This document shows positions 20,078 to 44,284 of a stretch of DNA of 44,908 nucleotides, in pieces. The position numbers and the translations under genes are program-made. Origin of the DNA: Mycobacteriales bacterium (lineage in GTDB: Bacteria > Actinomycetota > Actinomycetes > JAFAQI01); NCBI GenBank assembly GCA_035550055.1, contig DASZRO010000059.1:1-44908 (forward strand), read 5' to 3'. Each line of letters starts with the position of its first letter. The first letter of the stretch is position 1. The notes beneath the pieces are model-generated. The model was not told the DNA's origin. It saw nothing but the letters and a program-made list of their open reading frames with translations, and searched no databases.

Positions 20078-21079
20078 TTACGCCGCGCGCTGCGAGGACT
20101 CGCGGATCACCAGGGACGGCTGCATCGTGATGCGCTGAGTCGGCCGGTTGGGTTCTTCGAGCCGGTCGAGCATCAGGCGCATCGCCGCTTTGCCCACCTC
20201 GCGGGCGGGTTGTGCGACGCTCGTGATGCTCGGCTTCCACGATCCCGACCAGGGCTCGTCGTCGTACCCCGCGAGCAACAGGTCGTGGGGAATCCGGACG
20301 TTGCCGTCGGCGAGCTCCTGCAACGCGCCGAGCGTCATCTGGTTGTTGCACACCAGGAGCGCGTCGGGCCGGGTGCTGGTCAGGATGTCCCGAAGTGCGG
20401 CGCGCGCGCCGGCGGAGCGGAAGTCGGCGTGACGGAAGGTGATGTCCCGCCTGGGAATCCCTCGATCGCTCGCGGCGGCCAGGAAACCGGCCAGTCGTTC
20501 CTCGGCGGTCGACACCTTCTCGGGTCCGGTGATGCAGGCGAGGGTACGAGCGCCGCCGTCGAGCAGATGCTCGGTGGCTTCACGCGCCCCCTGCTTGTTG
20601 TCGACGAGCACCACGTCGGCCTTGATCCCCGCAACCTCACGGTCGATGAGGACGAGCGGCGGCAGCGCCTTGCCCGGACGGACCAGCTCCTCGGGAGCGG
20701 CCGACATCGCCGAAGCGAGGATCACCCCGTCGACTCGCTGGTCTTCGACGAGGCGCAGGTAGCGCATCTCCGCATCGGGCTGGTCGTCGGAGTTGCACAG
20801 GACCGCGAGCAGGCCGGCGGCGCGCGCGACGTCTTCGATTCCGCGCACTACCGAGGTGAAGAACGGGTTCTCGACGTCGGGTACGACGACCGCGACGATG
20901 CTGGTGCGTTGCGTGCGCATGCTGCGAGCGACGTGGCTGGGCCGGTAGTCCAGCTCGGCGATCGCGGCGCGGACCCTGGCCGCCATCTCGGCGTTGACCG
21001 CGGCGTTGTCGTTGAGCACGCGCGACACGGTCGCCACCGACACGCCGGCTTGCGCCGCGACGTCGTGAATGGTCGCCAC
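20078..21079 (-). CDS. LacI-family transcriptional regulator
   Basis: A 333-residue LacI/GalR repressor. The N-terminal helix-turn-helix is IHDVAAQAGVSVATVSRVLN (residues 4-23) and the hinge helix is YRPSHVARSMRTQRT. The effector domain has SIVAVVVPDVENPFFTSVV, VDGVILASA, LLVCNNQMTLGAL and LAGYDDEPWS. It probably represses the adjacent sugar transporter and the divergent aldo/keto reductase, and itself. The start is GTG at 21079. A TACGAT -10 box ends 6 nt upstream, and a candidate operator (21088-21102) overlaps that box, a direct sign of autoregulation. It converges on the transporter gene. Confidence 0.92.
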   Translation of the reverse strand: MATIHDVAAQAGVSVATVSRVLNDNAAVNAEMAARVRAAIAELDYRPSHVARSMRTQRTSIVAVVVPDVENPFFTSVVRGIEDVARAAGLLAVLCNSDDQPDAEMRYLRLVEDQRVDGVILASAMSAAPEELVRPGKALPPLVLIDREVAGIKADVVLVDNKQGAREATEHLLDGGARTLACITGPEKVSTAEERLAGFLAAASDRGIPRRDITFRHADFRSAGARAALRDILTSTRPDALLVCNNQMTLGALQELADGNVRIPHDLLLAGYDDEPWSGSWKPSITSVAQPAREVGKAAMRLMLDRLEEPNRPTQRITMQPSLVIRESSQRAA

Positions 21080-21085
21080 ATCCGT

Positions 21086-21102
21086 ATCGTAATCGATTTC
21101 TC
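21086..21102 (-). promoter_or_regulatory. Autoregulatory LacI site overlapping the leaderless -10 box of the lacI-type gene
   Basis: The minus-strand -10 box TACGAT (21091-21086) lies 6 nt before the GTG at 21079. The operator-like GAGAAATCGATTACG (21102-21088) overlaps it and shares GAGAAATCG with the sites near 17040. It also overlaps the stop codon of the cyclase gene. Confidence 0.6.
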
Positions 21103-24100
21103 AGCGTGCTTCGGCGTTCTGGCGCAGCGTTTCGTCGCAGACCGCGAGCCAGTGCTCGACGGCCGGACCCGGCGCGAGCGCGGCCGAGCGGCGCAGCAGG
21201 TCGAGCGCGCCGCGCGGGTTGGAACGGCGCAGCTCGATTCGGCCGAGCAGCAGATAGCCCAACGCCAGGAAGGACTCGGAGCCGGCCGCCTGCCAGCTCG
21301 GGATGACGTCATCGAGGATCTGCTGGGCCTCGTCGACGCGGCCGGCGTCGATGAGGATGTCCGCGCGGTTGACGGCGTTGGTGACCGCGTCAGCCTCGCG
21401 GCCGAGGGTGCGATAGGCGTCCTCGGCCGCTTGGAACTGCTCGGCGGCGGCTTCTGCCGAGCCGGCGAGGTACAACGCCGCGCCCAGCCGGTTGTGCGCG
21501 CGGGCCATCGCGGCGAGCTGCCCGGCCTCCTCGTAGCGATCGAGGGCCTCGTGGAAGGTCGACGCCTCCCAGGGTTGGCCGGCGGCGGCGGCGCACAGCG
21601 TGAGGATCTCCTGGGCGCGCGCTGCGACGAGCTCGTCGCCGCCGTTCAGCGCCTCCTCGCGGGCGCGGCCGGCCCACCTCGCGGCGGCCGCGATGTCGCC
21701 TTGGCGATAGCGGACCTGGGCGTAGGCGTCGGACAGCTCCGCGCGCAAGCGTGGCGCGGCGTCGTCGGCGGTGGTGTCGAGCAGCCGTCTTGCCCGGGTG
21801 ATCCATCGCAACGCGTCGGGATAGGCCCCGCCCGACTCGCGATGGCGGGCGGTCGCCAGGTGTGCCCTCGCGAGCCGGACCGGGTCGCCGCGCAGCAGCC
21901 GGCGTGCCTGCCGCAACGCCTGCTCGCTGTCGGCCAGCTCGGCGAGGTCGGCATGAACCTCCGCCAGCGCGAGCCACACCTCGGCGACGTCCGCGCCGAC
22001 CAGGTCGAGATGCGTCGCCGCGACGAGAGCACGGCGATAACAGTCGATCGCCTGCTGGAGTGCCGCACTCTCGCGGGCGAGCGCGGCGGCGCGGCAGGAG
22101 TGGCGCCATGCCGGCTCGAAGTCGTCACCGAGCAGGTAGTGGATCGACAGCGTGGTGGCGACCTCGTCGATCCTTCCCTCGCTGCGCTGTTCGATCGTCC
22201 GGCCGACCCGCGCGTGCAGCGCCGTACGGATCCGGTAGGGCAGACCTTCGTAGGCCGCCAGCCGGACCAGGCCGTGCACGAAACGCACCTGGGAGCGGTC
22301 CTCGACCGCGATGAAGTCGTCGAGTCCTTCCAGTCCGGCGTCGCCGTCGACGACGGCCGCGAGCAGCTCCAGTGACATGCGCTCGCCGACGACTGCGGCG
22401 GTACGAAGGAGCCGGCGCTGCTGCGGGGCGAGGCGGTCGATGCGCGCGGCCAGGACGCCTTCGATCGTCTCCGGCAGTGCGTCGAGGTCCTCGCCGGCCG
22501 CGACGCTGCCCGCGATCGCCTCGAGAAACAGCGGGTTGCCCGCCGCACGGTCTGCGGCAGCGGCCAGCAGCGCCGCTGGGATCGAGGCGGTTCCTGCGAC
22601 CTGCGCGAGCAGGCTCGCGGAAGCGACGTCGTCCAGCGGGCCGAGCTCCAGCCGGGTCGTCGCGGGCATTGGTGCGGCAGTCGGCTCGGGCCGGCGGGTG
22701 ACGACGATCAGCCACGGTCGCACGGACACGTCGCGGACGAGACGGCTCACCAGATCGAGCGTCAGGTCGTCCATGTCGTGGGCGTCGTTGAGCACGAGCA
22801 TGGTCGGCCGCGTGAGGGTGGCGCCCATCAGCTCGCTGGTCACCGTCTCCAGATGCTCTTTCTGCTCGGTCGGTGTCAGTGCTGTCACTTGCCGGCTGTC
22901 GGGGATCGCAGCGTTGGCGACCCGTCCCACCAGCGACATCCAGGGCAGCAGATGAGGCGCGCTGCCGCGGGCGAGCTCGACGAGCACTCCGGCGATCCGT
23001 TGGCGGCCGGCGGTCTCGGGGAAGCCCAACGTCCGGCGCAGCAGCCCGTGCATCGGGTGGTAGGCGCTCGCCCGCTGGTAGAGCTCGCCTTCGGCCCACA
23101 ACACCCGGACGCCACGCGTGCTCGCCTCGGCGGCGAGCGCCGCGGTCAGCCGGGACTTCCCGATGCCGGCCGGTCCCGTGATCTCGACGGCCTGACCCGC
23201 GCCATCGCAGGCAGCGTCGAGGAGTCCCCGCAGCGTGGCGAGCTGGTCGTCCCTGCCCAGCAGCGCATCCGGTCGGCCGTCCGCCGAGATTCCGCGAGCG
23301 CGCACGTCGCCCACTGAGAGCACGTGAACCGGCTCCGCCTTCCCCTTCAGGTGCATCGGGGCGACCGCGGTCGTCACGAATCGGGTCTTCGAGCGTTCGA
23401 CCACATCGGGTAGCGCCAGGACCTGACCGGGCTCCGCGGCGCCGGCGAGGCGGGCCGCGAGGTTCACCGCATCGCCGATCACCGAGTACGTCCGCCGATG
23501 GGCAGGGCCGTAGTCCCCGGCGAAGACGCGGCCTCTGGTCAGTCCGGCGCGCAGCTGGAGCCGCCCTCCAGGACGGACGATCCGACGTACGGTGCTGAGC
23601 ATTCGGGTCTCGTCGTCGCCGAGTGATCGAGGTGCCCCGGAGACCAGCAGCATTGCCGCGCCGTTCTCCCGCAGATCCGTCGCCAAGTAGGAGACCTCGG
23701 TGTCGGCGGCGGTGCGTTGGGTCAGGTCGACGACGTACCCGATGGCGTCGACTGCGGCCTCGACGCCCTGCGCGCGGATCAGATCGTCCGTGCCGAGCAT
23801 CTCGATGAATGCGACCGTGACGATGCGATGCTCGTAGTCGCTCTCTGACCCGTGCACGTGCTCGCGCAACGGCGGGCAGACGGCCGTCGCGAGATGCGCG
23901 CCGAGCTCTCGAGTGGTCACTGGCACGATCGCTGTCGCCTCGGGGGGCGCGACGAGTGCTGTGAGCCCGTCACGCCCTTCGCCGAGGCACTGCGGCGGAA
24001 GGTCTGCTGCGGCAGCCGCCGACAGCAGCACGGTTCCCGCCGCCGCGCGGCTTTCGGTGCTGACGGTGACCGACGCCGACGGACCCGCGATGACGAGCTC

Positions 24101-24565
24101 TCGGTGGACCGGACCGAGCAGCATGAAGTCGAACTCGCCGGTGTGGATACCGAACGACATCTCGATGCGCGTCGTCCAGTTGCCGATCCGCAGCTTCCCG
24201 AGGGTTCGCAGCTCGGCGAGCATCGCCCAGGCTGCCCGCGCGGCGCGTGCTGTGGCCTGATCGCCGTCGAAGAACAGGACCGCGCCGTCGCCGGCGAGCT
24301 TGAGCAGGTTGGCGCCGTAGTCGTACGCGGCGGCGAGCACCGGCTCGAAGACCATGTTGAGCAGATCGCCGGTCAGCTCGGCGCCGACCTTTCCCTGCTG
24401 GGCGAGGCGTTCGGTGAGTGCGGTCGATCCGACGACGTCGGCGAACACGCAGGTCCCGAAGACCGAACGGTGGGTGACGTCGGGCGTGGTGACGAGCCAG
24501 TCGGACACCACTTTCGACACATACGGCGCCAGCCGTCGTTGCAGCTCTGCGTCGCCCTGGGTCAT
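21101..24565 (-). CDS. Tandem class III adenylyl cyclase with ATPase and TPR-like region (soluble adenylyl cyclase layout)
   Basis: A 1154-residue multidomain protein. Cyclase domain 1 (about 33-185) keeps both metal aspartates, Asp43 (FADVVGST) and Asp93 (LKLAGDG), plus Lys89, but lacks the catalytic Asn/Arg. Cyclase domain 2 (about 246-420) has Ser361, Asn368 and Arg372 (YSVIGDAVNLAARL) but has lost the first aspartate (FIEMLG, Glu255). The two halves together would form one complete composite site, as in mammalian soluble adenylyl cyclase. An AAA/AfsR-like ATPase follows (Walker A GPAGIGKS, 464-471; GRDDQLATLRGLLDAA before it), then a long helical TPR-like tail from about 800. No DNA-binding domain is visible. 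ATG 24565 follows the upstream stop by 13 nt. Confidence 0.88.
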   Translation of the reverse strand: MTQGDAELQRRLAPYVSKVVSDWLVTTPDVTHRSVFGTCVFADVVGSTALTERLAQQGKVGAELTGDLLNMVFEPVLAAAYDYGANLLKLAGDGAVLFFDGDQATARAARAAWAMLAELRTLGKLRIGNWTTRIEMSFGIHTGEFDFMLLGPVHRELVIAGPSASVTVSTESRAAAGTVLLSAAAAADLPPQCLGEGRDGLTALVAPPEATAIVPVTTRELGAHLATAVCPPLREHVHGSESDYEHRIVTVAFIEMLGTDDLIRAQGVEAAVDAIGYVVDLTQRTAADTEVSYLATDLRENGAAMLLVSGAPRSLGDDETRMLSTVRRIVRPGGRLQLRAGLTRGRVFAGDYGPAHRRTYSVIGDAVNLAARLAGAAEPGQVLALPDVVERSKTRFVTTAVAPMHLKGKAEPVHVLSVGDVRARGISADGRPDALLGRDDQLATLRGLLDAACDGAGQAVEITGPAGIGKSRLTAALAAEASTRGVRVLWAEGELYQRASAYHPMHGLLRRTLGFPETAGRQRIAGVLVELARGSAPHLLPWMSLVGRVANAAIPDSRQVTALTPTEQKEHLETVTSELMGATLTRPTMLVLNDAHDMDDLTLDLVSRLVRDVSVRPWLIVVTRRPEPTAAPMPATTRLELGPLDDVASASLLAQVAGTASIPAALLAAAADRAAGNPLFLEAIAGSVAAGEDLDALPETIEGVLAARIDRLAPQQRRLLRTAAVVGERMSLELLAAVVDGDAGLEGLDDFIAVEDRSQVRFVHGLVRLAAYEGLPYRIRTALHARVGRTIEQRSEGRIDEVATTLSIHYLLGDDFEPAWRHSCRAAALARESAALQQAIDCYRRALVAATHLDLVGADVAEVWLALAEVHADLAELADSEQALRQARRLLRGDPVRLARAHLATARHRESGGAYPDALRWITRARRLLDTTADDAAPRLRAELSDAYAQVRYRQGDIAAAARWAGRAREEALNGGDELVAARAQEILTLCAAAAGQPWEASTFHEALDRYEEAGQLAAMARAHNRLGAALYLAGSAEAAAEQFQAAEDAYRTLGREADAVTNAVNRADILIDAGRVDEAQQILDDVIPSWQAAGSESFLALGYLLLGRIELRRSNPRGALDLLRRSAALAPGPAVEHWLAVCDETLRQNAEAR

Positions 24566-24578
24566 GCCGCGTTCACCG

Positions 24579-25040
24579 CTAGGTGCCGGAGAATCCGATC
24601 TCGACCGCGATGTTGTCGTAGGAGTCCGCGCTGGCGACCAGGCAGTGCAGAGGCGGCTTGGCCGGGTCTTTGCCTTTGAGGTAGGTGTACATCCCGTCGG
24701 CGCCGAGCCGCTGCTGGCCCTGAGCACGGAAGCCGAGCTCTTCGAGGACGGCGTGGTTGCGTGCCGGCGCGGAGTAGGTACCCGGGTCGTCGGCATCGGG
24801 TGCCATGTAACGACCGGGGATCGCCCGGTCGAGCGGGCATGCCGCCGCAATCTCGCGCAGTGCCGCGGCAGCGGTCAGGTCGCCACGTTCGTTGCCGAGG
24901 TAGTAGAACTCGTGCGCGCCGTCGGGCAGGTCGTAGCTCGGGTCACAGATCACGAGCAGCCGGCCGTGCCCGGCTCGGGTGAGAAGCCCGCCGGCATCAC
25001 GCGAGAAGTTCTTCGACAGGGGCCCGAGCAGCGGTGGCAC
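24579..25040 (-). CDS. Protein of unknown function
   Basis: A 153-residue protein I do not recognise. It has no membrane segment or signal peptide. Features include LLTRAGHGRLLVICDPSYDL near the N-terminus, EFYYLGNERGDLTAAAALRE, an acidic-proline stretch (MAPDADDPGTYSAP) and MYTYLKGKDPAKPPLHCLVAS near the end. Start GTG 25040 is supported by a TACGAT -10 box exactly 6 nt upstream, the same leaderless arrangement as other genes here. It lies 13 nt before the tandem cyclase start, so both are probably cotranscribed; a role with the cyclase is only inferred. Codon usage and amino-acid composition look like a genuine gene. Confidence 0.7.
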   Translation of the reverse strand: MPPLLGPLSKNFSRDAGGLLTRAGHGRLLVICDPSYDLPDGAHEFYYLGNERGDLTAAAALREIAAACPLDRAIPGRYMAPDADDPGTYSAPARNHAVLEELGFRAQGQQRLGADGMYTYLKGKDPAKPPLHCLVASADSYDNIAVEIGFSGT

Positions 25041-25052
25041 CTGCGAATCGTA
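25041..25052 (-). promoter_or_regulatory. Leaderless-type -10 box upstream of the unknown gene and cyclase
   Basis: The minus-strand TACGAT (25052-25047) is followed by 6 nt and the GTG at 25040. It is identical in sequence and spacing to the -10 box of the lacI-type gene. Confidence 0.5.
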
Positions 25053-25076
25053 TGCGCGCGACTGCCTCGGCGGCCG

Positions 25077-26033
25077 TCACTGCCAGGTCTGTGTCAGGAA
25101 GCCGACGATCTTGGCGCGTAGCTCGTCCGCGGCCGGGGTGACCGCGCGCAGGCACAGGTACCCGTGGACCATGCCCATGCGGTCGTCCGCGACGACCCGG
25201 ACGGCTGCGGCACGCAGCCGCTCGGCGTACGCCAGACCTTCGTCGCGGAGCGGGTCGAGCTCGCACGTGGCGATGTACGTCGGCGGCAGTCCGGAGAGGT
25301 CCGCTGAGCGCAGCGGCGACAGCTCGGGGTGCGAGCGGTCGACACCGGGCGGCGCGTACTGGTCGAAGTACCAGCGCATGTCGGCGGCGGTCAGCCCGAA
25401 GCCTTCGCCGCAGCGGCGGTAGGACCCGGTGTCGAGGTCGGAGTCGGTGACCGGATAGGCGAGCGCCTGCGAGGCGATGCGGCGGCCGTCAGCAAGCAGG
25501 CGTTGCGAGGTGACGGCGGCGAGGTTGCCACCGGCGCTGTCGCCGGCGACCGAGACGCGGGACGGCTCGATCTCGAGTTGGGCGGCATTGCTGAGCACCC
25601 AGGAGGCGGCCGCCGCGCAGTCGTCGACGGCTGCGGGAAACGGGTGCTCCGGGGCACGTCGGTAGTCGACGGAGACGACGACGGCCTGCGCGTCGTACGA
25701 GAGCTGCCGGCACAACCCGTCGTGGGTGTCGACGTCGCCGATCACCCAGCCGCCTCCGTGGAAGTACACGATCGCGGGCAGGACGCCGTCCCGTGGTCGG
25801 TAGAGCCGGACCGGCACGTCGCCTTCCGGCGTCGGCACGGCGAGGTTCGCCACCGTTGGGAGCATCGTGACCGGCCCCCACCAGGTCGCGAAGGCTTGCG
25901 CCATCACCCGCCGCGCGGTCGTTGCGTCGAGTGCGCACAGCGGGGTGGCGTCGGCCCCGGCGTCGAGCCAGGCTCGGATCTCGCGGTCCACGTCTGATCG
26001 TTGCACCGGGGTCCCGGATTCGACCACCCGCAC
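25077..26033 (-). CDS. Alpha/beta hydrolase fold-3 esterase (hormone-sensitive lipase family)
   Basis: A 318-residue serine esterase of the HSL family. The oxyanion-hole motif HGGGW (IVYFHGGGWVIGD), nucleophile GDSAGGN (VSVAGDSAGGNLA), catalytic Asp in CELDPLRDEG and His in MGMVHGYL are all present and spaced as usual. VVVSVDYRRAPEHPFPAAVDD is a strong family signature. It hydrolyses short acyl esters in the cytoplasm; no signal peptide is seen. The start is uncertain: GTG 26033 gives the longest protein, but GTG codons 6-20 codons further in are equally possible because no clear ribosome-binding site is visible. It follows the isomerase gene by 81 nt on the same strand. Confidence 0.88.
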   Translation of the reverse strand: MRVVESGTPVQRSDVDREIRAWLDAGADATPLCALDATTARRVMAQAFATWWGPVTMLPTVANLAVPTPEGDVPVRLYRPRDGVLPAIVYFHGGGWVIGDVDTHDGLCRQLSYDAQAVVVSVDYRRAPEHPFPAAVDDCAAAASWVLSNAAQLEIEPSRVSVAGDSAGGNLAAVTSQRLLADGRRIASQALAYPVTDSDLDTGSYRRCGEGFGLTAADMRWYFDQYAPPGVDRSHPELSPLRSADLSGLPPTYIATCELDPLRDEGLAYAERLRAAAVRVVADDRMGMVHGYLCLRAVTPAADELRAKIVGFLTQTWQ

Positions 26034-26114: not shown

Positions 26115-26933
26115 TCAGATCGCACTGGCGGCGATCACCCGACGGGCCGCGTCGCCCGCGAGTCTCGCGACGGTGTCGACAGGCTGCCGGCGCAGGTCGG
26201 TGTTGAAGACCTCGACCGACAGGGGCGCCTCGGCGGTGGCTTCGCGGAGCAGCGACAACAGCTCCAGCAGCGGGATGACGCCCTCGCCCGGCAACAGTCG
26301 TGCGCTGATGGACTCGGTCATCGAGTCGGTCGCCGGCTGGGCCACCGCGTCACTGATCTGGATGGCCCGTACGACGGAGAGGTCCTCGGCGGTCAGGCTG
26401 GCGAGTCGGCTGCCGCCGCGGTGGAAATGCCAGGTGTCGAAGGTGACTCCCGCGTTGGCCGCGCCGCAGGCTCGTACGACGCGTGCCGCTGCGGGAAGGT
26501 CCCCGACCGTCGACCATGGGACGAACTCGAGCAGCACCCCCACCCCTGCCTCGGCACCGCGCCGGCACAGCGCCGCAAACGCGTCGGTGATCTCGGCCTG
26601 CGACCACGGACCGGGAAACGCCACCGCTGCATTGATCCAGCGCGCACCGAGCGCCTCCGCAGTCGTGAGGACGTCCGCGGTGTCGTAGGAGAGCAACCCG
26701 CCGTCGGGGGTGGGCGGCATGCCGGGGAGCCAGGTGAGCGCGGGATCGACGGCGTCGACGACGACGCCGCAGTCGGCAAGGCGCAACCGCAGCTCGGCCG
26801 GCGACCGATGTGCGGACAGGTACTGCTCCGGGGAGACAGAGATGCTCGTGAAGCCGGCGTCGGCGGCGGCGTCGATGTGCGTCAGCAGCGGCGCGCGAGG
26901 CACCGTCCCCCAGCACAGCCCCAGCCCCATCAT
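26115..26933 (-). CDS. Sugar phosphate isomerase/epimerase-like TIM barrel
   Basis: A protein of about 272 residues of the xylose-isomerase-like TIM-barrel superfamily (AP_endonuc_2). Barrel strands and likely metal ligands are visible: FTSISVSPEQYL, ARWINAAVAF, VGVLLEFVPWS (Glu ligand), AGVTFDTWHFHRGG (Asp and His ligands), AIQISDAVAQP and PLSVEVFNTDLRRQ (Glu ligand). Members isomerise or dehydrate sugars, inositols or shikimate intermediates. I chose ATG 26933; an in-frame TTG at 26942 and ATG at 26930 are alternatives. It diverges from an SDR gene across a region with two palindromes, so it may share control with the CoA catabolic regulon. Confidence 0.8.
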   Translation of the reverse strand: MMGLGLCWGTVPRAPLLTHIDAAADAGFTSISVSPEQYLSAHRSPAELRLRLADCGVVVDAVDPALTWLPGMPPTPDGGLLSYDTADVLTTAEALGARWINAAVAFPGPWSQAEITDAFAALCRRGAEAGVGVLLEFVPWSTVGDLPAAARVVRACGAANAGVTFDTWHFHRGGSRLASLTAEDLSVVRAIQISDAVAQPATDSMTESISARLLPGEGVIPLLELLSLLREATAEAPLSVEVFNTDLRRQPVDTVARLAGDAARRVIAASAI

Positions 26934-39847: not shown

Positions 39848-42800
39848 ATGAACGCTACGCAGATTCGAACCGCCTTTCGCCCGCAGCACAGCTTGGTTCG
39901 GGGCGCGACGGTCGTGGTTGCGGTCTCGGCCGTGGTCGGCGCGTCGTTCGTTGTTGCGGCTACGCCTGCCGACGCCGCCGGTAGCGGTATCGCAGCCGCA
40001 AGCGCGGCGCCGAGGGCGCAACGTGAGCAGCGGTCGGGCACACGAGTGCCCGATCTCACACAGCCTCGCGGGACAGCGCGTCCAGCAGACAGCGTTCCGC
40101 CTCCTCCGTCCTCGATCACCTTGACCTCTGATCGCGCCGAGGTGACGTCGATATCCTCGGCGACGTTGACGGCGACGGCCTCATCGACGTTGAACAACAC
40201 GCCGTACGAGATCGCGATCGTCGACGTCACCACCGGGGTACGTCTTGGGTTCTGTGACACCGACCACACGCCGTGCGCGGATAACTACACCGCCTATGTC
40301 GCTCAGGTGGGCTGGACGGCGACGGCACAGACGTATCGGGCCGAGATTACTCTTAACGGCAGCGCGGTGGTCACTGGTAACACCGTGACCATCTCGCCTG
40401 AGCCATGGGCGGTCACTCTCACGAGTTCGACCGAGCAGCTGACGACCGGGCAGCAGGCGACGCTGACAGCAACGGCGAATCAGCCGATTACGAACACCCC
40501 GTACTTCATCGCGATCTACGACACGACCACGGGCGATCGCGTCGGCTACTGCGACGGCGACCACACGCCGTGCAATGTCACCGCCACGATAGAGACGGCG
40601 ATCGTGGACTGGACCGACGACCCCGAGGTATACGTCGCAGATGTCAGTCCCCAAGGTGTGTCACCAACCTCGGCTGGCGTGGTCGCGACCAGTGATCCGG
40701 TGACGATCTCCCCTCTGGGTGGGTGGTCGATCACGCTCACCGCCTCTACCGCATCATTGACTGGCGGTCAGCAGGCGACCCTGACCGCGGTCTCAAGCCA
40801 GACAATCGACGGGACCCCGTCTTACTTCATCGCGATTTACGACACCACCACCGGCGATCGCGTGGGCTACTGCGATGGCGACCACACGCCGTGTACCGTC
40901 GATGACACAACTGCGACCACCAGCGTGGGCTGGTCGGATGCGCCTCAAACCTACGTAGCAGACGTCAGCCCGCACGGCGACCCGCCGACGGCGAGTGATG
41001 TCGTGGCCATCAGCGACCCCGTCATCATCAGTCCGGCGGCTTGGTCCGTCACACTGACGACGACTGCCGCAGCGGTGGGCAGCGGGCAGACGGCTGTGTT
41101 GACAGCGACGGCGAATCAGACGATCGACGACACCCCCTATTTCATCGCGATTTACGACACCACCACCGGCGATCGCGTCGGCTACTGCGACGGCGACCAC
41201 ACTCCGTGCACCACCGTCCATGACATCGCGACGATCGCCGATGTGGGCTGGTCGGCGACACCCCAGACGTACGTCGCGGATGTCAGTCCCAACGGTGCGC
41301 CCCCGACCTCACACACGGTGGTCGCTGTCAGCAATCCGATCACCATCAGCCCGACGCCATGGACGGTCAGGCTTTATGTGCACCCTCAGGGCGTTGGAAA
41401 GGCGACACTGACGGCGGTCGCCGATCAAGACGTCGACTTCACTCCGTACTGGATCGTGATCTACCGGACCAACGGCGAGACAACTGCCGCAGTCTGTGGC
41501 AGTGGCTCGATCTGCACCGCACAGGTTGAGGGCAGCAGCCAGCCGTACGTAGCGGAGGTCAAGGCAACTCCCGCACAGTTCTCCGCGCCATTCGTGGCGC
41601 GCTCCGGGGTCGTGTGGGCGCCATCCGACGGCCCATCGGGAGGTTGCGGTTGCCCGGACGGCGATCCGGTCTATCCGAGTACCGGCCAGATGCTGCTGAC
41701 CCAGGCCGATGAGACGATCGGCGGTCGAGGGCCGCAGCTGGATCTCGACCGCACGTATGACAGCTTCGACTCGGAGCTTCCCAGTCCGTTCGGGTACGGC
41801 TGGACGAGCAATTTCGGGCTGACTCTGTCAGTGGACCCGGTCGCGACCGGGAGCTCGTTGGACACGGCGAGCATCGTCGATCTGGGGGAGACCAACGGTG
41901 GCATCGTTCCCTTCACCCGCAACGCGGACGGCACGTACACCGCACCGGAACCGATCCTCGGCACGCTTGCGCAAGGCGCAGACGGATCGTTCACCTACAT
42001 CCAGCAGGCACAGACGATCTACACCTTCGATGACGCCGGGACACTCGTCGAGATGAGCGATCTCAACGGCAACACTCTGACGCTGCACCACACGAATGGC
42101 GAGCTTGCCACGATCACCGACTCCAACGGCCGAGCCATCAGGCTCGCCTACAACGACTCCGGAGAAGTTACGCAGCTGACCGATCCAGCCGGCCGCGTCA
42201 CCACCTACACATATGACGGCGACGGGAACCTCACCTCCGTGACCGACCCGTCGGGCGCCACGAACGAGTACACCTACGATTCCGACCACAAGCTCCTGAC
42301 CCACACCGATCCCGACGGCAACGTCGCAACCAACACCTACGACGACGCCGGCCGAGTCATCGGCCAAACCGACCGTGCCGGACGCCGCTACGCCTTCGGC
42401 TACAACGGCGACAACACCGTCACGGTGACCGATCCTGACGGGAACCAGAGTCTGGAGACCTACAGCAACAACGAGCTCATCGCGGACACGGTCGGCGTGG
42501 GCACGTCGAACCCCGAAACCACCACTTACACCTATAACCCCGGCGCCCTCCAGGTGAGTACCGTGACCGACCCCGGCGGCCATGTCTGGTCGGCCACCTA
42601 TGATTCCCAGGGCAATCAAACATCGGTGACTGACCCTGACGGCGAGGTCACACAGGCGACCTACAACAGCCTGGACGAACCACTCACCGTCACCGATCCC
42701 ATGGGTGTCGCCACGACCTTTACCTATGACTCGAACGGCAACCTGATCTCCGAGTCGCAACCGGTCGACGGTCAGCGCACCGCGACCACGACCTACAGCT

Positions 42801-44284
42801 ACGCGGATAGCGCCAATCCCGGGATGCCCACGACTATCACCGACCCGCGCGGGAGCCAGACGCACATCGGTTATGACAGCGATGGCGACGTGACCTCGGT
42901 GACCGATCCGGACGGCGATGAGACGACGTACTCCTACTCATGTGCCAGTGGGTGCGCGAACGGACTCGGGTGGCTCTACTCATCGGTCAGTCCACGCGGC
43001 AACGCTCCGGACGGGGATCCTGCTGCATACACCACCGTCTACACCCGTGACCAAGACGGCCGCGTCGTGTCACAGACCAGCGCGCTCGGCAACGCGACGT
43101 CGTATCGGTACGACGCCAACGGAAACCTCACGTCCTCAACCGATCCGCGTGGACAGACCACCACCTACGGATACGACGGGGACGGTGAGCAGATCTCAGT
43201 AGGTCGCCCCGACGGCACGACGACCTCAACGACCTACAACGGCGATGGTCAGGTGACAGGCCAGACCAACGGCCTCGGGCGCACCACCACCTACAGCTAC
43301 AACGCGCTCGGCGAGCTAACCGCGAGCACCACACCCCCGACAGCGACAAACCCGAACGGGATCACCACCTCCTACGGCTACAACACCGCAGGGTGGCTGA
43401 GCACCTTAGCCCAACCGGGCACGGCCGGGTCGTTAACAACCAGCTACGGCTACGACTCAACCGGTCGGCTCACCTCTGTTGCCTACAGCGACAACACGCC
43501 CGCCGTCGTCTACCGCTACGACGCCGATGGCAGGCGGACCGCGATGACCGATGGAAGCGGCACCAGCACCTACAGCTACAACCTTGCGGGCTGGCTCACC
43601 TCGACAACGAACGGTGCTGGAAAGAGCGGCTCCTACGGCTACGACCTCGATGGTGATCCGACGACGATCACCTACCCGAACGGCAAGAACGTGACTCGCA
43701 GCTACGACCCCGCGGGTCGGTTGGTTTCGGTTGCCGACTGGGAGGGTGATACCACGTCGTTCGCTTATGACCCTGATGGGGATCTCATCGACACTGACTA
43801 TCCGAATGGGGTTGTCGAGGCTGATACCTATCGGGCCGATGACTCGATGTCTGGCCTGACCGATACCGGTGGAGGCTCGACTCTCGCCGACTACGCCTAC
43901 ACCAGAGACCCGAACAACGACCTGACCGGTGTCACCGCCGGAGGGACGACCGCACCACCCGCCGAGTCCTACGGCTACAACGCCCTCGATCAGCTCGCTC
44001 AGTACACGACGAACACGCCAGGGGTGAGCAGCGGTGCCTATTCATACGACGCGGACGGCAACCTCACCAGCACCCCGGACGGCACGACTCTGTCCTATGA
44101 CCCGGCCGACGAGCTCACCCAAACAGCAAGCTCTGCGGGCGGCACTGCCTACACCTACGATGCCCGTGGCGACCGCACCGGATACACGCCGGCGGTTGGA
44201 GCGCCCACGAGCTACAGCTACAACGCTGCGAACGAGCTCACCCGGATTCACCCGCAATGCCAGCACCGCAACTTACGGTTATGA
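39848..44284 (+). CDS. Giant secreted Ig-like/YD-repeat (RHS) protein, frameshifted near 44246
   Basis: A 1478-residue open frame, and the protein should be longer. The signal peptide spans residues 1 to about 42 (VVVAVSAVVGASFVVA...ADA). Residues about 89-580 hold five tandem Ig-like modules, four with a G-[YF]-C-D-x-D-H-T-P-C motif. Then GGCGCPDGDPVYPSTGQM starts the RHS part, with DLDRTYDSFDSELPSPFGYG, and from about 733 many YD repeats (YDxxGNLTSxTDP, YTYDGDGNL). Such proteins wrap into large cell-surface or exported shells, often ending in a toxin. ATG 39848 follows GGGGGAT. The frame ends in out-of-frame residues; one base removed near 44246 restores homology to the window end. Confidence 0.85.
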   Translation: MNATQIRTAFRPQHSLVRGATVVVAVSAVVGASFVVAATPADAAGSGIAAASAAPRAQREQRSGTRVPDLTQPRGTARPADSVPPPPSSITLTSDRAEVTSISSATLTATASSTLNNTPYEIAIVDVTTGVRLGFCDTDHTPCADNYTAYVAQVGWTATAQTYRAEITLNGSAVVTGNTVTISPEPWAVTLTSSTEQLTTGQQATLTATANQPITNTPYFIAIYDTTTGDRVGYCDGDHTPCNVTATIETAIVDWTDDPEVYVADVSPQGVSPTSAGVVATSDPVTISPLGGWSITLTASTASLTGGQQATLTAVSSQTIDGTPSYFIAIYDTTTGDRVGYCDGDHTPCTVDDTTATTSVGWSDAPQTYVADVSPHGDPPTASDVVAISDPVIISPAAWSVTLTTTAAAVGSGQTAVLTATANQTIDDTPYFIAIYDTTTGDRVGYCDGDHTPCTTVHDIATIADVGWSATPQTYVADVSPNGAPPTSHTVVAVSNPITISPTPWTVRLYVHPQGVGKATLTAVADQDVDFTPYWIVIYRTNGETTAAVCGSGSICTAQVEGSSQPYVAEVKATPAQFSAPFVARSGVVWAPSDGPSGGCGCPDGDPVYPSTGQMLLTQADETIGGRGPQLDLDRTYDSFDSELPSPFGYGWTSNFGLTLSVDPVATGSSLDTASIVDLGETNGGIVPFTRNADGTYTAPEPILGTLAQGADGSFTYIQQAQTIYTFDDAGTLVEMSDLNGNTLTLHHTNGELATITDSNGRAIRLAYNDSGEVTQLTDPAGRVTTYTYDGDGNLTSVTDPSGATNEYTYDSDHKLLTHTDPDGNVATNTYDDAGRVIGQTDRAGRRYAFGYNGDNTVTVTDPDGNQSLETYSNNELIADTVGVGTSNPETTTYTYNPGALQVSTVTDPGGHVWSATYDSQGNQTSVTDPDGEVTQATYNSLDEPLTVTDPMGVATTFTYDSNGNLISESQPVDGQRTATTTYSYADSANPGMPTTITDPRGSQTHIGYDSDGDVTSVTDPDGDETTYSYSCASGCANGLGWLYSSVSPRGNAPDGDPAAYTTVYTRDQDGRVVSQTSALGNATSYRYDANGNLTSSTDPRGQTTTYGYDGDGEQISVGRPDGTTTSTTYNGDGQVTGQTNGLGRTTTYSYNALGELTASTTPPTATNPNGITTSYGYNTAGWLSTLAQPGTAGSLTTSYGYDSTGRLTSVAYSDNTPAVVYRYDADGRRTAMTDGSGTSTYSYNLAGWLTSTTNGAGKSGSYGYDLDGDPTTITYPNGKNVTRSYDPAGRLVSVADWEGDTTSFAYDPDGDLIDTDYPNGVVEADTYRADDSMSGLTDTGGGSTLADYAYTRDPNNDLTGVTAGGTTAPPAESYGYNALDQLAQYTTNTPGVSSGAYSYDADGNLTSTPDGTTLSYDPADELTQTASSAGGTAYTYDARGDRTGYTPAVGAPTSYSYNAANELTRIHPQCQHRNLRL
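40405..41361 (+). repeat. Tandem Ig-like module repeats in the RHS gene
   Basis: Three DNA-similar units of about 310 bp (starting near 40405, 40724 and 41038) encode Ig-like modules. Each includes a nearly identical stretch coding FIAIYDTTTGDRVGYCDGDH (near 40506, 40828 and 41141). More divergent modules flank them (about 40113-40400 and 41362-41590). The DNA identity suggests recent duplication or gene conversion. Confidence 0.75.

Follow-up and report, generated by a model that had tools for sequence, protein, structure and literature searches.

The window analysed here, a stretch of 44,908 nucleotides from a Mycobacteriales genome (contig DASZRO010000059.1), carries on its minus strand a complete coding sequence for a nucleotidyl cyclase of 1154 residues (21101..24565). 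The ATG is at 24565 and the stop codon ends at 21101. According to the translation and to Pfam, profile and structure matches, two cyclase domains (C1 and C2) are followed by a STAND NTPase module and a TPR region. Pfam searches with the whole protein gave Guanylate_cyc (59 bits, two stretches), AAA_16 (residues 435–621) and TPR_12, and in the genome scan the two cyclase domains were separately above the Pfam cut-off (36.0 and 25.7 versus 21.9 bits). The open reading frame (ORF) finder reported a longer frame of 1249 residues, which adds a TTG-started extension. As the proteins of the relatives begin near residue 1, the ATG at 24565 is the likely start. The base composition at the codon positions agrees with coding in this frame, and a stray overlapping ORF was ruled out as the true gene by this composition and by conservation. 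The ratio of nonsynonymous to synonymous substitution rates, determined with two pairs of close relatives, is about 0.2 in C1–C2 and 0.25 in the tail. Thus, these tandem proteins resembling soluble adenylyl cyclase (sAC) are under purifying selection. A phage origin was rejected, since the cyclase gene has no phage match, and a plasmid origin was rejected, since the plasmid matches span only part of the protein.

The structure of residues 1–425 was predicted by AlphaFold2 using an alignment of 54 sequences. The model shows a mean predicted local distance difference test score (pLDDT) of 94.2 and a predicted template modelling score (pTM) of 0.93, and both domains are packed together. The pseudo-heterodimer anticipated in the sequence-only reading is therefore what the prediction gives. 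In the Foldseek search of the C1–C2 model against the PDB, the top 24 matches are all human sAC, and the first one has an E-value of 3e-28. According to VIA-align, human sAC (4clk) is the best of the PDB chains, with a Z-score of 42.1 and a root-mean-square deviation (rmsd) of 2.4 Å over 401 residues; lower Z-scores were obtained with AC9 (37.4) and an ATP-binding protein of P. aeruginosa (6yii; 26.6). A profile of 12 relatives searched against the PDB also gave human ADCY10 first (E 1.6e-40), with C1 and C2 collinear. Judged by these comparisons, the ADCY10-like match of the tandem cyclase is far from chance.

C1 (residues 32–205; 23951..24472) was delimited by the residue check, the ADCY10 profile match and the model, and C2 (residues 243–425; 23291..23839) by Pfam, the residue check and the alignments. 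The linker between them (residues 206–242; 23840..23950) was assigned from the secondary structure of the model. The catalytic residues are divided between the two domains. C1 has the metal aspartates D43 (codon 24437–24439) and D93 (codon 24287–24289). C2 has S361, N368, R372 and the KGK motif (residues 407–409), and Glu255 is located at its metal aspartate position. All the residues named in the sequence-only reading (D43, K89, D93, E255, S361, N368 and R372) are present at the positions given there, and the division of labour that it described is a fixed pattern. In an alignment of 64 bacterial tandem cyclases including the window protein (35 of clade I and 29 of clade II, as defined below), D43, D93, N368 and R372 are invariant. 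The metal position of C2 is occupied by E, Q, K, H, N, R, G, S and others, and by Asp in none. The profile–profile alignment of C1 with C2 identified positions 165 and 169 of C1 as the counterparts of Asn368 and Arg372; Asn or Arg is scattered at these positions and conserved at neither. The hydroxyl residue of class IIIb type, at the position of Thr405 of sAC, is S361 in the window protein, S or T in 31/35 members of clade I and T in 22/29 members of clade II. The four core catalytic residues and both KGK lysines are kept in all 35 members of clade I. As read from these alignments, C1 and C2 together give each chain a single full set of metal and transition-state residues.

In one scan of public genomes, 80 loci were obtained; the 57 with both cyclase domains entered a tree of 70 rows. 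In the tree, clade I (mainly Actinobacteria, including the window protein) is apart from clade II (Chloroflexota, Acidobacteriota, Verrucomicrobiota and others). Human sAC is located inside clade II in a group of six rows with a support of 100/99, on a long branch (2.32) whose exact neighbour is unsure. The window protein thus does not group with ADCY10. Matches at E <= 1e-50 were found in 26 of the 296 species of the phylum sample, and most, not all, of them are full-length tandem proteins. In the order of the window genome, 11 of 13 genomes have matches at E <= 1e-40, and the window protein is one of many in its phylum and order. In three Chloroflexales genomes (G308, G310 and G311), multiple tandem sAC-like copies are present in each, showing a lineage expansion.

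The substrate pocket was compared with that of human sAC. The beta2–beta3 hairpin of C2 has a four-residue insertion relative to C1 and to Rv1625c, whereas sAC is aligned without that gap. Because the longer hairpin is common to both proteins, Ala295 of the window protein sits at the position of the base-binding Lys334 of sAC. In clade I, this position is E in 13 sequences, A in 11, G in 5, S in 3 and D in 3, and never Lys; in clade II, it is K, Q or R in 27/29. The position of Lys144 of sAC, which contacts the pyrophosphate, is S137 in the window protein, Ser or Thr in 35/35 of clade I and basic in 28/29 of clade II. At these two positions, the window protein does not have the residues of ADCY10 proper. 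The claim of a complete site therefore holds for the metal and transition-state residues, and does not hold for the base lysine (A295) and the phosphate lysine (S137). Two candidates for a substitute were rejected. Lys89 is not the base-binding catalytic lysine, since the one-sided pair needs that lysine from C2, and K89 is aligned with Lys95 of the pseudo-site of sAC. Asp297 is excluded as a clade I-specific base-binding marker, because Asp is also present there in 12/29 members of clade II. As both lysines are replaced, cAMP is not to be assumed as the product. From the sequence, the pocket differs from that of human sAC and the cyclised nucleotide cannot be named; the trigger and the product of clade I probably both differ from those of the human enzyme.

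The STAND NTPase module (about residues 430–790; 22196..23278) was assigned from Pfam AAA_16, from its motifs and from structure matches to 6mfv, MalT (8bob) and Apaf-1. It contains Walker A (GPAGIGKS, 464–471), a Walker-B-like motif (NDAHDMD, 593–599) and GNPLF (676–680). The TPR superhelix (about residues 816–1149; 21119..22120), a putative sensor, was assigned from Pfam TPR_12, the model and matches to TPR domains. The model of residues 430–1154 has a pLDDT of 90.3 and a pTM of 0.87. Its first Foldseek match is the TPR-STAND protein 6mfv (E 9.8e-15), and the VIA list includes MalT (Z 22.3, 364 residues), Apaf-1 (Z 19.7, 393 residues) and many TPR domains (Z 20–25). 6mfv is aligned with the tail over 610 residues with an rmsd of 9.3, which probably reflects a different domain arrangement from that of the modelled tail. 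In the predicted structure, the P-loop, Walker B and GNP motifs are thus present in an NOD fold with a putative sensor on the C-terminal side. Both the ADCY10-like order with an ATPase and a TPR-like tail, and the nucleotide switch suggested for this tail, are borne out at the level of domain and model matches.

According to these results, the window protein is probably an sAC-like, STAND-gated cytosolic class III nucleotidyl cyclase from a mainly actinobacterial subfamily whose substrate site is altered. From the predicted fold, the residue pattern, its conservation and the domain layout, we infer how catalysis and gating might proceed. C1 and C2 would pack against each other into a pseudo-heterodimer in which one active site is usable and the other interface is degenerate. 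C1 would give the metal aspartates D43 and D93, and C2 would give N368, R372, S361 and the KGK lysines. The TPR superhelix may catch a ligand or a protein as the signal. This capture would shift the ATP/ADP state of the STAND NTPase, which is the probable on/off switch. The altered STAND state would then change the packing of C1 and C2, and the single active site would turn over to give its product. Several observations weigh against this assignment. Both substrate-binding lysines of sAC (Lys334 and Lys144) are gone in every aligned member of clade I. The window copy itself has DVVGST where the clade has DISGFT, Asn301 where the clade has mostly Asp, and Ala304 where 33/35 members of clade I have Lys. 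The C-terminal tail of ADCY10 itself is absent from the solved structures matched by the tail model. Finally, the gene neighbourhood in the window is not kept in the relatives, and therefore gives no clue to the signal.

In this neighbourhood, all the genes assigned are on the minus strand. A short ORF at 24579..25064 ends 13 bases before the ATG of the cyclase on its upstream side, and shows weak similarity to RbsD/FucU (Pfam E 0.001, below the cut-off) and no match in the PDB or NCBIfam. A LacI-family regulator (20078..21079; Pfam, and RbsR-like by NCBIfam) is located 21 bases downstream of the cyclase. Both are possible operon partners. An esterase (25077–25991) and a xylose-isomerase-like TIM barrel (26115–26903) are also present. 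None of these four genes is common to the loci of the relatives, and a link of the cyclase to sugar use would be a lead only. On the plus strand, a long predicted protein of about 1380 residues with a low-complexity Ser/Thr/Ala start is encoded at 40142–44284. In the window genome (3.5 Mb, 122 contigs), six genes encode cyclic-nucleotide-binding (cNMP-binding) proteins, and class III cyclases are encoded by about ten genes besides that of the window protein; this speaks for the assignment as a cyclase.

In the relatives, other neighbours were observed. A family of hydrolases with the metallo-beta-lactamase (MBL) fold (PF12706, 49–68% identical, signature VRGSTPAPG..VRYGGHTS) adjoins the clade I cyclase in nine loci and in several orientations (L032, L037, L041, L046, L047, L055, L058, L063 and L066). 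A member is also located 80 bases upstream of the cyclase in the genome G098. A rough estimate of chance for this adjacency, which ignores the detailed phylogeny, gave P of about 3e-9 for 9/34 loci and 1.5e-5 for 5/20 independent lineages. In the sample of 296 genomes, the hydrolase and the cyclase are both present in 12 (Fisher P 1.5e-4, uncorrected for relatedness). The hydrolases resemble RNase Z, and five copies weakly match a model of a cyclic-nucleotide-degrading phosphodiesterase (38–62 bits; cut-off 400). They are possibly the partner phosphodiesterases of the clade I cyclases. In the window genome, no match to this family was found at E <= 1e-40. A clade II-type relative, L011 in the locus L040, lies between a stand-alone cNMP-binding protein about 10 bases before it (L040:6495-6917, plus strand) and an ABC transporter directly after it that has a cNMP-binding domain at its C-terminus (L040:10626-12848, plus strand). 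Because of the MBL-fold and cNMP-binding neighbours, a cyclic nucleotide product is favoured for the family. It can be proposed, as a doubtful extension, that clade I is a separate sAC-like branch in which the two substrate lysines were lost, that its product is not cAMP but cGMP or another cyclic nucleotide, that the STAND-TPR tail switches it, and that in many lineages a dedicated MBL-fold phosphodiesterase is encoded beside it. In the GTDB family of the window, a conserved family of signal-peptide-like proteins also adjoins the cyclase (L033:5614-6660, L034:9995-11038, L036:10870-12168, L037:9150-10421 and L032:10946-11833; two scanned members showed no Pfam match). Next to the closest relative of the window cyclase, a serpin gene (L031:11594-12751, minus strand; Pfam E 2.9e-72) is located directly upstream.

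The sequence-only reading also considered bicarbonate as the activator. A bacterial equivalent of mammalian sAC, making cAMP and switched on directly by bicarbonate, would agree with the sAC fold and the residue split, and Lys89 corresponds to Lys95, one of the two bicarbonate ligands. Furthermore, a Chloroflexus sAC-like cyclase (Kobayashi 2004) is bicarbonate-activated, according to the citing statement in PMC11006738. In human sAC, however, bicarbonate is bound by both Lys95 and Arg176, and the latter acts as the switch by which Asp99 is freed (PMC12250328, PMC12867704). K89 is kept in the window protein, but V168 is located in place of Arg176. The bacterial sequences have A, V, S, M, G and others at this position, and Arg in 0/64; the clade II rows of the alignment likewise lack it. 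Among metazoan sACs, those in which the residue at the position of either Lys95 or Arg176 is neutral were found to be controlled by pH and insensitive to bicarbonate (PMC12867704). Human-type gating is therefore unlikely, and control of the window cyclase by bicarbonate through the Arg176 switch, as far as these residues indicate, is unlikely as well. Should the Arg be absent from the Chloroflexus enzyme as well, the reported activation would mean that bicarbonate has another route. As the base-binding lysine is also gone, we consider a cAMP-forming, bicarbonate-activated enzyme quite improbable.

The altered pocket also fits C1–C2 as a guanylyl or broad-specificity cyclase, in which the loss of the purine lysine altered the substrate. 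Glu, the commonest residue of clade I at the Lys334 position, is usual there in guanylyl cyclases (PMC4886424), and the exchange of the residue at this position and its partner in Ma1120 increased the use of GTP and decreased that of ATP (PMC4215837). The window protein, however, has Ala instead of Glu, and at the partner position Ser instead of Cys. Within the clade, position 295 varies, unlike a specificity determinant, and the hairpin in which it lies exceeds that of standard cyclases by four residues, which makes the exact equivalence less sure. Such a change of substrate thus seems unlikely. The absence of both lysine equivalents would also suit a pseudoenzyme, which binds the nucleotide without turnover and so provides the STAND switch with a second sensor, and 6yii is an example of a two-domain class III-like protein that binds ATP. 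However, the invariant core residues and KGK lysines of clade I would be needless for mere binding, and the phosphodiesterase-like and cNMP-binding neighbours of the relatives suggest a cyclic product. We regard a pseudoenzyme as rather improbable. It is highly improbable that the protein is a Pycsar-like cyclase that signals against phages under the control of a STAND sensor. STAND proteins are known in defence, and PADLOC gave a weak similarity to PycC (33.8 bits), as expected of any class III cyclase. This match is a short fragment of 41 residues, no Pycsar effector gene was recognised nearby, and the neighbours resemble genes of sugar catabolism. For the same reasons, the assignment as a Pycsar cyclase was rejected.

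The interest of sAC lies in its standing as a drug target and as a model of how metabolism directly controls cAMP. With full-length sAC, no isoform-specific effect was seen for five nucleoside triphosphates or for several further nucleotides (PMC12802110). The bacterial relatives, whose STAND-TPR tail is predicted with confidence, offer compact proteins on which the role of the STAND tail can be examined. Clades I and II, compared with each other, form a natural experiment on which sAC residues are required for responding to bicarbonate, choosing the base and binding the phosphate. A further STAND-gated signal route would exist in Actinobacteria if the product of clade I is another cyclic nucleotide.

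Several known systems can be compared with the window protein. The TOMM system kinase/cyclase fusion (TIGR03903) shares a cyclase and an ATPase region with it, but was rejected as an assignment, since the score is 149.5 bits versus the curated cut-off of 705.75 bits and the best stretch begins inside C2. The whole-protein search of the window genome gave one other match, a paralogue (G000:C95:104993-107638) with a class III domain, an ATPase and a helical tail, which is 32% identical over residues 239–1097. It is an example of the class III cyclase-ATPase-TPR proteins that, unlike the window protein, have one cyclase domain only. This domain possesses metal aspartates and a lysine of its own, and the paralogue must therefore dimerise with another chain. 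The P. aeruginosa protein 6yii also has two class III-type domains per chain; it is described as an ATP-binding protein, whereas the window protein retains the four core catalytic residues.

The Chloroflexus proteins described by Kobayashi, Buck and Levin in 2004 reportedly carry a pair of catalytic domains and show similarity through the C-terminus. As far as the citing papers relate it, that description covers bacterial sAC-like cyclases with a P-loop domain (PMC6660944, PMC3085406, PMC11006738), and therefore the layout was already known in bacteria. The Chloroflexota-type enzymes (clade II) resemble the window protein in the tandem cyclase domains and the split site, and a P-loop NTPase domain is likewise found in bacterial sAC-like cyclases (PMC6660944). 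In contrast to clade I, clade II mostly retains a basic residue at Lys144 and K, Q or R at Lys334. No earlier description of the loss of both substrate lysines in clade I was found in a literature search limited to open papers. Human sAC (ADCY10; 4clk, 4oya), the cAMP-forming enzyme of sperm, is alike in the one-chain C1–C2 arrangement, the residue split, the extended C2 hairpin, the class IIIb-type hydroxyl and the P-loop STAND domain after the cyclase. It differs in that the identity is 19%, it belongs to the other clade, and Arg176, Lys144 and Lys334 are replaced by V168, S137 and A295 in the window protein.

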